Shown one piece after another: positions 2,330-6,187 of a DNA stretch of 21,633 bases. A program made the translations under genes and the position numbers. The notes under the pieces are model-generated. The model was given only the letters and a program-made list of their open reading frames with translations, was not told where the DNA came from and did not search any database. The stretch is from a virus. Position 1 is the stretch's first letter. Every line of letters begins with the position of its first letter. The stretch spans positions 1-21,633 of the IMG/VR virus record IMGVR_UViG_3300030380_002784, one strand, 5' to 3'.

Positions 2330-2974
2330 TTAACTTCGCTGACCACTTCTTACGCTCTGTCTATAATAATCAGTGTTCTCTGTAAAGTCGCCATAATTCT
2401 TCAATAAAAGTAACGCCTCATTAAATTTAGCTTGGTATGATTGAAGTACATCTGCCTCACCTTTCATAAAAATGTATGCCTCAGTTAACGCTCCATACAA
2501 CATTGCGTTGGATGCGTTTGTACCCAACCAGGAAGTTCCATCTCCCGTAGCTGTTATCGAAGTAGGCCTGTAGTAATAATGAAGTTCACTTGAATAGTTT
2601 GCATCCGGTGTGGGACTTATAATAAAGTTTGTAACATCGAAAAGAGCATAATATTTGGGAGTGCCTGTAGTCGATGGATTAGGATTGTATTCTTGAATAA
2701 AGTTTACATCCTTAAAAAGTAAGAACTCTTTGTTACTGCTGTTTGTAACGGACAAAGAAAAAGGTGCAAGATAATCTGTTGGCACTGCTAAAAACTGATT
2801 GCCAGATGTCATTGACCCAGATGCATTTTTTCTAAATAGATCTAAGTTAATGCCCCTAAGTATTTTTTCTTCAGTGTTTTTTATAAAGACATCAAGATTA
2901 TTGACAAAAGTAGTTTCATCATTCTCTGTCCAGTCTTGAATTGCTTGTTTTAATGTTGTGTAAGTATAACTCAT
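2330..2974 (-). CDS. Head-to-tail adaptor / tail-tube-A-like protein (214 aa)
   Basis: The protein starts MSYTYTTLKQAIQDWTEND, then NLDVFIKNTEEKILRGINLD, then a beta domain (SGNQFLAVPTDYLAPFSLSV, then FIISPTPDANYSSELHYYYR), ending in a helical segment (LTEAYIFMKGEADVLQSYQA...NEALLLLKNYGDF). This helical/beta/helical layout, including the LPTDYL/YYRP-type motifs, is that of the gp11/SU10-type adaptor proteins that sit under the portal in short-tailed phages and form the ring receiving the tail. Its length is normal for the group. A second, distantly similar protein is encoded at 4028-4696, so this phage may have two stacked adaptor rings. The assignment rests on pattern recognition, not a search. 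Confidence 0.6.
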   Translation of the reverse strand: MSYTYTTLKQAIQDWTENDETTFVNNLDVFIKNTEEKILRGINLDLFRKNASGSMTSGNQFLAVPTDYLAPFSLSVTNSSNKEFLLFKDVNFIQEYNPNPSTTGTPKYYALFDVTNFIISPTPDANYSSELHYYYRPTSITATGDGTSWLGTNASNAMLYGALTEAYIFMKGEADVLQSYQAKFNEALLLLKNYGDFTENTDYYRQSVRSGQRS

Positions 2975-2978
2975 GGTA

Positions 2979-3632
2979 CTAAACTATCGTTATATTTCCA
3001 ACCATACTACTGTGATTAGTGCATTGGTACACTAACGAAGTATCGCTTGGTTCATGTGGTACAATAAATTGTGTTAACCCCGTGGTAGAGTTAAAGTTTT
3101 CTGTTACACCTGTAGTAAATGCAGAGCCACCATTTGATGTTCTTATTTGTAAAGGATGACTACTTACATTTGCCGTGTTATCTATAAGATAAGTATGCCC
3201 TTTGTAAAATGTAAAGTTAGGGTTATCACCAGAAGTGGCTCCTGGCCCTGTAAAAGTATATGCGCTTGATCCATTTGTTCCAGCTACATACTTAGTGACA
3301 GGTCCTGTTGTCTCATCGTTTAGTCTAAGCCAAGCACCACCATGAGCAAAGTATAAACCCCCTGTTGCATGAACATGAGCTATTGCCCCATGATATGTCG
3401 AAGCACTAGGTAGGTCGCTTAGATTTGCATAATAGAAAACAATTTTGTTAGCACCAGAGCTAACGTCAAAAAGACCATTTGCATCTATGATATCTGTCAG
3501 AACACTAGAACTGTTTCCTAATGCATTATATATCTCTGTAAAATTATCATTTATCTTATCAGCACCAGCACGGAGTGTGTCACCTGTACCGTCATTTGCA
3601 CTAGAACCAATTCCTACAGTTTGCTTTGCCAT
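2979..3632 (-). CDS. Fibre/neck structural protein with cupredoxin-like C-terminal domain (217 aa)
   Basis: Residues 1-40 (VGIGSSANDGTGDTLRAGAD...INDNFTEIYNALG) are the well-known N-terminal module shared by many fibre and neck proteins of marine T4-like and other phages. Residues 41-110 are a beta-rich linker with several His. Residues 113-217 resemble a small blue-copper fold: a strand pair with FTFYKGHTYLIDN, then SSHPLQI (His159), and near the end YQCTNHSSMVG (Cys204, His207, Met210) followed by a closing strand NITIV. The Cys-x2-His-x2-Met spacing is that of amicyanin. Related fibre-domain sequences with YYCTNHSGM-type ends occur in cyanophages. Whether copper is bound is unknown; the fold may be purely structural. 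The ATG follows GAGGG, and the upstream stop ends at the base just before it. Confidence 0.7.
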   Translation of the reverse strand: MAKQTVGIGSSANDGTGDTLRAGADKINDNFTEIYNALGNSSSVLTDIIDANGLFDVSSGANKIVFYYANLSDLPSASTYHGAIAHVHATGGLYFAHGGAWLRLNDETTGPVTKYVAGTNGSSAYTFTGPGATSGDNPNFTFYKGHTYLIDNTANVSSHPLQIRTSNGGSAFTTGVTENFNSTTGLTQFIVPHEPSDTSLVYQCTNHSSMVGNITIV

Positions 3633-4028
3633 TTAACCCTCGTCAAAAGTTTTGGTAGCTGAATCAAGTGTAACACTTGTAGAATCGAAAGTCGATGCCG
3701 AGGTGGCAGCAGTTGTTACTTCCACGGTTCCAACACTCAAAGTAAGAGCATCTAATTTAGACAGTACCCCTCCTATAAAACCATCGCCAACATTTGTTCT
3801 AACAATTACTCGAGTAATTAGATCTACATATTGGTCTGGTCTTGGGTTACGGAGTGCTTGAGGATCTGAGCCTACGTTAGCAGGTTCTAGTTGAGGATGC
3901 TTCGGTTCATACTCGTCTGGACCAACCTTTAGCCCATTCCATTCAGTTCGCATCTCTGCCAGCCGATACCTAAACCCAGATCTATCTGAAGTTCCATAAG
4001 CATTTCTACCAGATGCGTATCTACCCAT
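3633..4028 (-). CDS. Conserved virion-associated protein (131 aa)
   Basis: The protein begins MGRYASGRNAYGTSDRSGFR, then YRLAEMRTEWNGLKVGPDEY, then EPKHPQLEP and DPQALRNPRPDQY. I recognise this N-terminal half as a small protein in the structural region of many marine phages (pattern MGRYASG...SDRSG....Y.EM..EWNG..V...E.EPKHPQLEP). The C-terminal 50 residues are Thr/Ser/Val-rich and look beta-stranded. The DRSG and EPKHPQ motifs are the conserved core; their role is not known to me. The start overlaps the stop of the upstream adaptor-like gene by one base (TAATG), which ties it to the neck module. Confidence 0.6.
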   Translation of the reverse strand: MGRYASGRNAYGTSDRSGFRYRLAEMRTEWNGLKVGPDEYEPKHPQLEPANVGSDPQALRNPRPDQYVDLITRVIVRTNVGDGFIGGVLSKLDALTLSVGTVEVTTAATSASTFDSTSVTLDSATKTFDEG

Positions 4029-4696
4029 TACGTTACTCTGAGATATTCAAAACTTGGTTGTAGTTTTAAAGGAACTCTATCTTCATCCTCATCGGCTGCT
4101 CTTTGAAACTCTTCCTCATAAACAGCTTTTAAAAGTTGTATTCTATCTGGAGCCTTTTTCATTGCTAAATAGTAAGCAAGCCCAGCTACTATACAAGGCA
4201 GAAATCTAAAAGGTGCGTCAGTAGTGTTAACTAATGCGTCTGCATCTTCAATTCTTTGAATGTAATAATAGACCAAAATATCAGAAGAACTATCTGGTGT
4301 AGCCCACAAGTTTATTTCAGGTATTGTTTGCCTGTTATAATAATACTGACTAGGTCTGCCTTGTGTTGTTTTATTTGGTATACTTAAATATTCGCCTCTG
4401 GATATTCTATTTAAATCAAAATCAGTACCATCTCTTCTAAGAACTACCTCTAATAAATCAGTAAAAGTAGCGTTGAAGGCGTAGGTAGCAGTTCCAGCGG
4501 TTAAAGATTGTGTGTCTTGTTTAACAGTCCAAAGATTAATTCCTCTGTTCGCCCATTCTGCGAACATAAGATTCAGTGACCTTCTAGCAGTTTTAGCATC
4601 ATATCCAGTTCGTAATTCTAAACCACAACGCTCGTAGGCTTCCTCGATAATATCTGCAACGTCTAAGTCAAAGTCTCTAGATCCTGATGTAGCCAT
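4028..4696 (-). CDS. Head-completion / adaptor-like neck protein (222 aa)
   Basis: The start is preceded by GGAAGAG. The N-terminal helices read DVADIIEEAYERCGLELRTG and TARRSLNLMFAEWANRGINL, then WTVKQDTQSLTAGTATYAF, a beta domain with LLEVVLRRDGTDFDLNRIS, a PSQYYYNRQ...INLWATPDS segment, and C-terminal helices (FLPCIVAGLAYYLAMKKAPD...LKAVYEEEFQRAADEDEDR). This is the layout of P22 gp4 / SU10-type neck proteins, which bind the underside of the portal and close the head after packaging. It is about 50 residues longer than P22 gp4 (166 aa). The fold call is from pattern memory. Together with the 2330-2974 gene it suggests a short-tail neck. Confidence 0.65.
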   Translation of the reverse strand: MATSGSRDFDLDVADIIEEAYERCGLELRTGYDAKTARRSLNLMFAEWANRGINLWTVKQDTQSLTAGTATYAFNATFTDLLEVVLRRDGTDFDLNRISRGEYLSIPNKTTQGRPSQYYYNRQTIPEINLWATPDSSSDILVYYYIQRIEDADALVNTTDAPFRFLPCIVAGLAYYLAMKKAPDRIQLLKAVYEEEFQRAADEDEDRVPLKLQPSFEYLRVT

Positions 4697-4698
4697 GA

Positions 4699-5370
4699 TT
4701 ACTCTTCCGAATATAAATTGTTAAACGTAATATCTGGGTCCATATAACTACTATCACTTTCAGCACTGTGTGTCCATTGACTTGGTCTAAAATCAGGAGC
4801 ACCTTCACCAGTCTCCCAAAGAGCAGGGCTCGTTGCTCTGACCCTATTGTTAGGTAAGGCTACGATATTTCCTGTCCATTTACCAGCATCTGTTAGTTGT
4901 AATAAGTGACTTTGTTTGTGTTGTGCAGGGTCGTCTGCTATTTCATTTTCGGTGTAATCAACAGTGAAGATATACTTTCCAGTATAAAACTCACCATCTA
5001 TCTTACACAACCAAGGACTAGAGCTAACTCTATCAAGACAATAAACAGAGTGAAAATGAGAGCTACAATCCCAGGGTTGTGCTAAATGTGTCGGCATTTG
5101 TTCAGGCCATTCTTCTAAAGGAACGTCTGCAACAAGTGCTGTAATTGGCATTCTCGCCCACATAGCCCCTCCATGAATGTTTTCAGTTTCTCCATCATCA
5201 GCTTCATAACCTGTGAAGATTAATTGAAAACTTAAACATCTGTCAGGAATAGTTGTAACAGCAATTGCCATAGCATGTATAAAATCACCATGATAATTAG
5301 AGTGATTATGCGTATATTCTCTTCTCACCCAGCATTTAAAATACGGGATGTTGCTTTGCAAATAAGGCAT
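4699..5370 (-). CDS. Conserved marine-phage protein of unknown function (223 aa)
   Basis: A well-formed frame with no convincing ribosome-binding site: only TTCCTTAA precedes the ATG, directly after the stop of the 38-residue basic gene. The protein is rich in aromatic residues and His (YFKCWVRREYTHNHSNYHGD, MWARMPITALVADVPLEEWP, WDCSSHFHSVYCLD) and has a predicted beta-sheet character. The C-terminal part (PALWETGEGAPDFRPSQWTH, then SYMDPDITFNNLYSEE) has the look of a capping or fibre-attached domain. I have seen similar sequences in marine virome contigs without a function. Placed between the basic microprotein cluster and the neck genes, it is probably a virion or morphogenesis protein. 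Confidence 0.55.
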   Translation of the reverse strand: MPYLQSNIPYFKCWVRREYTHNHSNYHGDFIHAMAIAVTTIPDRCLSFQLIFTGYEADDGETENIHGGAMWARMPITALVADVPLEEWPEQMPTHLAQPWDCSSHFHSVYCLDRVSSSPWLCKIDGEFYTGKYIFTVDYTENEIADDPAQHKQSHLLQLTDAGKWTGNIVALPNNRVRATSPALWETGEGAPDFRPSQWTHSAESDSSYMDPDITFNNLYSEE

Positions 5371-5378
5371 TTAAGGAA

Positions 5379-5495
5379 CTAGCGTCTTCTTGCTGCCCCG
5401 CCTCTTGCTTTCTTCATCGCACCGCCTCGAGCCATGCCTTTTTTCTTTTTCATCGCACCGCCATTAGCCATGCCTTTTTTCTTTTTCATCACCAT
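5379..5495 (-). CDS. Lys/Gly-rich tandem-repeat microprotein (38 aa)
   Basis: A 38-residue gene starts at 5495 with AAGGAG 8 nt upstream. The protein is almost entirely a repeat: KKKKGMANGGAM, KKKKGMARGGAM and a shorter third copy KKARGGA, ending in ARRR. The underlying DNA repeats as well, with the 24-nt stretch of 5468-5491 largely duplicated in 5432-5455. It has no acidic residue at all. Similar KKKKGMAxGGAM microproteins occur in marine phage genomes. Its role is unknown; the charge suggests binding to nucleic acid or to an acidic protein surface. I consider it real because of its site, codon phase and tight fit between neighbours. Confidence 0.65.
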   Translation of the reverse strand: MVMKKKKGMANGGAMKKKKGMARGGAMKKARGGAARRR

Positions 5496-5507
5496 TTGGT
5501 TTCTCCT

Positions 5508-5666
5508 TTACGCTCCAGCCATTCTTTTTCTAGGACTCATATAAACCCCACCAGAATTTTTCTTAACTGCGCCACCTTTTCTCATGTAACCCATATTGTT
5601 TCTCACATTCTTGGGAAGATTAGGTAGACCCTTGTTGTCTGCTGGTACTGGTTTTAATTTAGTCAT
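5508..5666 (-). CDS. Small basic GGA-motif protein (52 aa)
   Basis: The ATG at 5666 has CAGGAG 6 nt upstream. The 52-residue protein reads MTKLKPVPADNKGLPNLPKN, then VRNNMGYMRKGGAVKKNSGG, then VYMSPRKRMAGA. The central NLPKNVRNNMGYMRKGG part is a pattern I have met in small marine-phage proteins. It carries the KGGAVKK...GGVY motif that recurs in other proteins of this window. It is strongly basic, with no predicted membrane segment and no cysteine. It lies 12 nt before the 38-residue gene, and the two are probably co-translated. Function unknown. Confidence 0.65.
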   Translation of the reverse strand: MTKLKPVPADNKGLPNLPKNVRNNMGYMRKGGAVKKNSGGVYMSPRKRMAGA

Positions 5667-5707
5667 AAAAATCTCCTGTGTTTGTTTAACCGTATCACAA
5701 CAATAAT

Positions 5708-6187
5708 TTAGAAGCTACCCCTATTAGCAAATAACCAGAATACAAAAATAAAAAAACCAACAACTGTAATCACTAAAAAACCAATACTAACAGCTTCTAC
5801 AAGGTGCCTTCTAGCCTCTCTTTGTGCATATAGTGTTTCTTTCCTTTGCTTTCGTATGTCTGCTTCCATACGAAGTAATTCTTGCCATGCGCTTGGGCCA
5901 CACATAGCAGAAATTAATTTACGAAGTTCATCTCTTTGATTCTCAAGCTGTTTTTTTTGAGTAAATAACTCTACAGCTTCTTGCTCTACACTCTTAGCAT
6001 TAAATATTTTCTTGAATAATGGAGGGTTCTTAGCCTCATGGTGAGCGCGATCAATATCAGATACTGCTGACATCCAAGTAGACAAACTTTTGCCCATTGA
6101 ATGCACATCACGGCCTATGCTCACACCTTTTTTTAAAGTGGCAAAAGCACCGGAGGCCAACGCCATTGCACTGATCGGATCGACCAT
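5708..6187 (-). CDS. Coiled-coil protein with C-terminal membrane anchor (159 aa)
   Basis: The start has AGGAG upstream. The N-terminus (VDPISAMALASGAFATLKKG) is a glycine/alanine-rich amphipathic stretch. Residues 65-130 are a long charged helix (EQEAVELFTQKKQLENQRDE, then LRMEADIRKQRKETLYAQRE) likely to form a coiled coil. Residues about 133-155 (VSIGFLVITVVGFFIFVFWL) are one hydrophobic transmembrane helix, followed by a short tail. Proteins with this plan are frequent in marine phage structural regions, function unassigned. They could be an injected or ejection-type virion protein, or a lysis accessory such as a spanin-like factor. The presence of only one C-terminal anchor makes a holin less likely. 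Confidence 0.65.
   Translation of the reverse strand: MVDPISAMALASGAFATLKKGVSIGRDVHSMGKSLSTWMSAVSDIDRAHHEAKNPPLFKKIFNAKSVEQEAVELFTQKKQLENQRDELRKLISAMCGPSAWQELLRMEADIRKQRKETLYAQREARRHLVEAVSIGFLVITVVGFFIFVFWLFANRGSF

Follow-up and report, generated by a model that had tools for sequence, protein, structure and literature searches.

A cupredoxin-like domain with a full T1-copper ligand set in tail proteins of marine phages

Our main finding is that marine phages carry, in their tail and fibre-attachment proteins, a cupredoxin domain with the full T1-copper ligand set. We read this domain as a metal-stabilised, mobile module for surface binding, and give that reading a probability of roughly 0.6. 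The evidence comprises homology, a predicted fold, conservation of the ligands, their equivalence to those of plastocyanin, their joint loss and the modular spread of the domain. Note that cupredoxins are an old family, and that databases have long listed the phage proteins under different names. What is new is the use of a predicted T1-copper-type domain as a virion module. Our search of the literature covered open-licence papers, where absence is not proof; it turned up no account of a cupredoxin or copper site in the virion of any phage, or of copper in cyanophages. Similarly, the main text of a paper on HTVC023P-type phages (PMC9599517) mentions neither copper nor cupredoxins.

A cupredoxin-like domain at the end of a short tail protein

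The gene occupies 2979..3632, on the minus strand, of the window (the whole 21,633-nucleotide stretch of viral DNA analysed). It starts with ATG at 3632 and, stop codon included in the coordinates, encodes 217 amino acids. The protein is built from a gp9/gp10-like N-terminus, a middle module and a C-terminal cupredoxin-like domain. Residues 3-61 (3450..3626, minus strand) form the T4 gp9/gp10-like domain, which would serve virion attachment. They match Pfam PF07880 with 34.3 bits, against a Pfam cut-off of 25, and phmmer also aligns them with T4-type proteins whose structures are solved, namely gp10, gp9 and wedge connectors. The middle module, residues 67-107 (3312..3434, minus strand), corresponds to phrog_9729, a tail fibre protein. 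The cupredoxin-like domain, residues 108-217 (2982..3311, minus strand), was delimited from the C-terminus of phrog_677, an AlphaFold2 (AF2) model and fold matches.

The family phrog_677 ('baseplate wedge tail fiber protein connector') matches the whole protein (E 2.3e-49), with residues 108-217 equivalent to its C-terminal 110 positions. The gp9/gp10 N-terminus and the phrog_677 C-terminal domain are thus both present, as in gp9-type connectors. The initial annotation spoke of a fibre tip; what the data show is a short tail protein of gp9/gp10 type that ends in the cupredoxin-like domain. Cyanomyovirus connectors of phrog_677 have the same C-terminal domain and the same kind of N-terminus. 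However, they are 393-501 amino acids long, so that the window protein is about half their size. They also occupy the baseplate of a contractile tail, whereas the window genome is of podovirus type.

Four residues of the C-terminal part had been singled out in the initial annotation, and both their identity and numbering are correct. These are His159, in the motif SHPLQI (codon 3156..3158; internal sequence VSSHPLQIRTS), Cys204 (3021..3023), His207 (3012..3014) and Met210 (3003..3005), all encoded on the minus strand. Cys204 is the only cysteine of the protein. The C-terminal end reads LVYQCTNHSSMVGNITIV, and the C-x2-H-x2-M spacing of Cys204, His207 and Met210, read directly, equals that of the amicyanin loop, as the same annotation had noted.

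The fold was predicted with AlphaFold2 from the window domain and 31 relatives. The domain model is all beta (pLDDT 90, pTM 0.82). A full-length prediction was poor (pLDDT 48), its alignment holding near-copies only, and was set aside. Foldseek was used to compare the domain model with the PDB, and all 50 of the 50 matches listed are cupredoxins (probability 0.96-1.00). They include a three-domain nitrite reductase (2dv6, the best, E 5.2e-4), rusticyanin, Phormidium plastocyanin and small laccases. Note that single-match E-values are modest, and that TM-scores to known cupredoxins are moderate (0.43-0.57).

Profile searches gave the same picture. Searched against the PDB, a family profile built from 32 copies found T1-copper nitrite reductase (9cck, E 0.0012), amicyanin, rusticyanin, auracyanin, plastocyanin and pseudoazurin; no solved structure of a phage member appeared in this search. 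Single members searched against NCBIfam matched rusticyanin (7.9e-5), amicyanin (12 of 32 members, best 2.4e-4), halocyanin and plastocyanin. Two relatives exceed the cut-off of 21.2 for PF00127 (Copper-bind): L091:4892-5209, with 22.9 bits, and a lipoprotein at locus L249, with 22.1 bits. The window protein by itself has no cupredoxin match in Pfam (PF00127 included), in NCBIfam or, by phmmer, in the PDB. Hence, the family profile was needed because the protein taken singly is too diverged. We conclude that the model and profiles confirm a predicted Greek-key beta-sandwich of cupredoxin type. The cupredoxin shape claimed initially therefore stands: structure prediction and structural search recovered the barrel, with only cupredoxins among the 50 PDB fold matches listed.

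Equivalence of the four residues to blue-copper ligands was examined with HHalign, against reference cupredoxin sequences. In the plastocyanin alignment, His159, Cys204, His207 and Met210 fall on the four ligand columns, which we take to be His37, Cys84, His87 and Met92, respectively. In the rusticyanin alignment, the first histidine falls on GHSFDI, and the cysteine and methionine on their rusticyanin counterparts. The first histidine is two columns off in the amicyanin alignment, and for azurin HHalign gave no alignment. In the AF2 model, His159 is just before a strand, Cys204 closes the penultimate strand, and His207 and Met210 are in the loop before the last strand. By topology, this predicted placing is the T1-copper arrangement. 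Clustering of the four residues at one site was judged indirectly, from the plastocyanin columns and these strand positions.

The small T1 copper proteins (amicyanin, rusticyanin, plastocyanin and halocyanin; PF00127, TIGR02657, TIGR03095) thus share with the domain the predicted beta-sandwich and the places of the four ligands. They differ in being free secreted carriers, whereas the window domain, with its predicted copper site, is part of a virion protein. In small cupredoxins, the first histidine is usually followed by Asn or Ser, and in amicyanin by Asn; here, Pro160 follows His159. The rusticyanin motif GHSFDI is nearer to the first-histidine motif of the domain, GHPFxI, than is the HN of plastocyanin and amicyanin. 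Likewise, the neighbours of the gene are phage structural genes rather than the methylamine dehydrogenase expected near amicyanin. The likeness to plastocyanin and amicyanin proposed at the outset hence stands for the CxxHxxM end, and for the four columns aligned with plastocyanin, but not for the first-histidine motif, which is HP-F/L and not HN. T1-copper nitrite reductases and small laccases provide the best sequence match (9cck, with the cysteine loop YICTLHPWMKG) and the best listed fold match (2dv6). These enzymes also carry type-2 or type-3 copper domains, while the phage module is a single domain without them. Copper binding by the domain is a strong prediction.

Conservation and joint loss of the ligands

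In 22 near relatives, none of the four residues varies. They are also kept in eight of eight diverse phage copies, which are 34-50% identical to the window copy. Since a search can favour the residues it looks for, the scope of each census matters. With the ligand columns of the search profile blanked, 347 of 354 distinct full copies keep the whole His-Cys-His-Met quartet. A ligand-blind scan of the collection, using an alignment masked at the ligands and patterns without any of the four residues, found it in all 51 distinct copies among the matches listed. The alignment of homologues thus bears out conservation, which the initial annotation had set as a check, and a chance motif is ruled out by the ligand-blind census. 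One further copy set and the bacterial genome scan were selected with C, H and M in the pattern; hence, only the first histidine is an unbiased test in those copies. With clustering at 50-70%, conservation is 89-98% in the four ligand columns, which puts them near the top of about 98 columns with a mean of 49-54%.

The exceptions are instructive. In L166, the first histidine is replaced by Asn, the cysteine by Ala and the second histidine by Gln, with the methionine kept. In L242 (frame +1 ORF, residues 373-473), all four ligands are replaced, by Thr, Ser, Asn and Gln. The first histidine is about 45 residues from the cysteine and second histidine, and was lost jointly with them in both cases. 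Furthermore, L166 and L242 are on separate branches of the tree. If the residues share a metal, such paired losses on different branches are to be expected. A simulation of independent loss produced such joint loss in none of 200,000 runs, a result that is only indicative, as sites were taken as independent and copies as unrelated. L343 lost Cys, His and Met in one stretch and is therefore weak evidence; L166 and L242 carry the argument. The first histidine alone is lost in L185 and L300. Apparent first-histidine losses in L320 and L332, counted among the seven exceptions, were rejected as alignment shifts, since THAI and THQL keep the histidine. The L242 locus also holds an intact copy beside the ligand-less one, and so provides a natural metal-free control.

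A disulfide was considered as the reason for Cys204 and ruled out. The cysteine stands alone in 337 of 354 domain copies, and 72 of 77 window-type proteins have one per protein. Hence, as usually the only cysteine of the domain, Cys204 is not a disulfide partner.

Source phage and spread of the domain

The window, a 21.6-kb virus record, encodes a terminase, portal, capsid and SU10-type adaptors. It shares with Pelagibacter phage HTVC023P 46% identity in the portal, 71% identity in the capsid protein, and the order of genes around the adaptors. On this basis, we class the window phage as an HTVC023P-type (pelagiphage-like) podovirus; its host is probably SAR11, the commonest ocean bacterium. 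One SU10-type head-tail adaptor (4028..4696, minus strand; PF24175) is 49% identical to HTVC023P gp54. A second (2330..2974, minus strand; PF24175), homologous to HTVC023P gp56, is directly downstream of the tail protein gene. Also on the minus strand, 4699-5370 encodes a 223-amino-acid protein matching phrog_3704 (E 6.5e-31), which is labelled 'ferredoxin' in the moron/auxiliary category. The label is doubtful because the protein is without a Pfam match.

HTVC023P lacks this tail protein gene, and its flanking genes gp55 and gp56 abut. In 023Pt_psg01, a phage of the HTVC023P type, the homologue of the 4028..4696 adaptor has its own N-terminal cupredoxin-like domain. This fused adaptor (L466:13697-14794), with the motifs DTHQIAF and YYCTAHSGM, adjoins the position of the free-standing gene in the window. 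Since the domain is absent in HTVC023P and fused to the adaptor in 023Pt_psg01, it is an accessory that moves between neighbouring virion proteins.

The domain was expected in marine phages, and is widespread there. By tblastn, it is present in 329 to at least 354 phage records, depending on the query. Nearly all are marine cyanophages, and the carriers are mostly gp9-type wedge connectors. Virus contigs with the domain number at least several hundred, and two contig scans gave at least 600 matches each. Among predicted viral structures, cyanophage wedge connectors, proximal tail fibres and subtilisin-like peptidases match the model. Beta-sandwich proteins of marseillevirus- and pithovirus-like records match it more distantly (E 1e-5 to 2e-4). 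In S-TIM5, the domain is in a protein next to the portal. S-CREM2 gp123, looked for as a carrier detected in virion proteomics (PMC10665884), is without the domain. In S8 subtilisin-like proteins of S-CAM1 and relatives (L170-L184 and L089), protease segments split the domain body from the CxxHxxM strand, which suggests a nested insertion or permutation.

Carriers in bacterial genomes include marine Bacteroidota, Alphaproteobacteria, Planctomycetota and others, and the domain is often at the extreme C-terminus of long proteins. Two of these loci, L210 and L212, are themselves of phage type, with tail-protein architecture. Some bacterial copies are small proteins with a lipoprotein-like signal (L245, L249 and L264), and so represent extracytoplasmic relatives. 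At L245 (frame +2, about 4890-5780), from a Marinoscillum-type bacterium, two such proteins of 141 and 151 amino acids are adjacent; both are candidate small cupredoxins. A lipoprotein-like protein of Flavobacterium gillisiae (L198) has three CHRD domains followed by a C-terminal cupredoxin-like domain. Virus and bacterial sequences are intermixed in a tree of 119 copies, whose supported branches require at least five changes. The window type is placed with copies from P-RSM6 and S-SSM6a (support 100/83). Details of the tree are unsure because only about 100 columns lie behind it. We conclude that the domain is a mobile module of marine phage tail proteins found also in bacterial lipoproteins.

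Possible roles of the metal and meaning for marine phages

In the reading that we prefer, the gp9/gp10-type N-terminus would anchor the protein in the tail, with the domain facing outward. The apo-domain would be made in the cytoplasm, and copper, as Cu(I)/Cu(II), would be taken up in the periplasm or, after lysis, in seawater. The metal would then lock the Cys-His-Met loop and shield the lone thiol, and the rigid beta-sandwich would give the virion a stable module for binding the host surface. That the domain is exposed on the virion and binds a receptor is presumed here. Because the domain is found in fibres and also in an adaptor, it would be a general surface module, not one for a single receptor. 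The least certain step is that the role of the metal is mainly structural or in docking, and not redox. Note also that virion proteins assemble in the copper-poor cytoplasm, which counts against copper.

A working redox blue-copper centre would challenge the least certain step. Such a centre might exchange electrons or dock with redox proteins of the host envelope, or scavenge reactive oxygen in sunlit water. The complete His-Cys-His-Met set, axial methionine included, is the redox T1 set, and the nearest profiles are those of the electron carriers amicyanin, rusticyanin and plastocyanin. Moreover, the named hosts of these phages are mostly cyanobacteria, and cyanobacteria use plastocyanin. 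However, no redox partner gene was recognised next to the tail protein gene within the window, and the domain occurs in structural proteins of very different architecture, often as one of several beta modules. We consider this reading unlikely. Somewhat less probable again is a structural site for another metal, either zinc or iron acquired at assembly. The cytoplasm, where virions assemble, has zinc available and not copper. The window protein also has an HxH motif of its own, His86-Val-His88 in the middle module, which is invariant in 22 near relatives together with His81 and His97. It is seen in P-TIM68 too, while P-RSM6 and S-SSM4 are carriers without it. T4-type tail fibres hold iron at HxH motifs, as known from the T4 gp37 crystal structure cited in PMC11705849, and a second metal site in the middle module is therefore possible. 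The HxH of T4 gp37 and of alterophage R22Y likewise places metal ligands in a phage tail protein. In the gp37 type, though, iron is held by paired histidines of the fibre trimer, whereas the site predicted here, Cys-His-His-Met, is inside one domain. Against zinc, near-absolute conservation of methionine is typical of copper sites, and every related structure among the matches listed is a copper protein.

The same source discusses a 'Ferrojan horse' idea of iron in phage tails, for which it cites a hypothesis paper (PMC11705849). In a copper version, the loaded domain would imitate a copper carrier and thereby let the virion dock on copper-uptake proteins of the host. The presence of the domain in tail-fibre attachment proteins would suit this. 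Conversely, no host receptor is known, and the head-tail adaptor of 023Pt_psg01 and the portal-adjacent protein of S-TIM5, which also have the domain, make no obvious receptor contact; we rate such mimicry as very improbable. Our lowest rating, by a little, goes to a metal-free cupredoxin shape, with the four residues kept for packing or receptor contact only. L166, L242, L343, L185 and L300 lost some or all ligands and yet retain the fold-defining residues; hence, the fold can exist without metal. Even so, few copies show such losses, and most of the losses are joint, the pattern of a metal site. Nor is it easy to see why a single conserved cysteine would face seawater unless it served as a ligand.

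Returning to the metal-stabilised surface module, its consequences are broad if the domain binds copper. As far as the literature was searched, iron is the only metal discussed in phage tails, and copper has been reported in no phage particle. A large share of ocean viruses would then be copper-bearing particles with a spectroscopic handle, and how they attach or decay could hinge on the chemistry of copper. A direct test is feasible, because the carriers syn9, P-SSM4 and S-SSM4 are isolated phages with culturable hosts. Our boldest suggestion is tentative: virions of cyanophages and some pelagiphage types might be copper proteins with genuine blue-copper sites in their tails, loaded in the periplasm or seawater, whose copper state affects attachment or stability. 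If true, this would link marine copper chemistry to infection. Proteins now named 'baseplate wedge' or 'hypothetical' would gain a meaningful label, and the particles of many ocean viruses may be copper-bearing.
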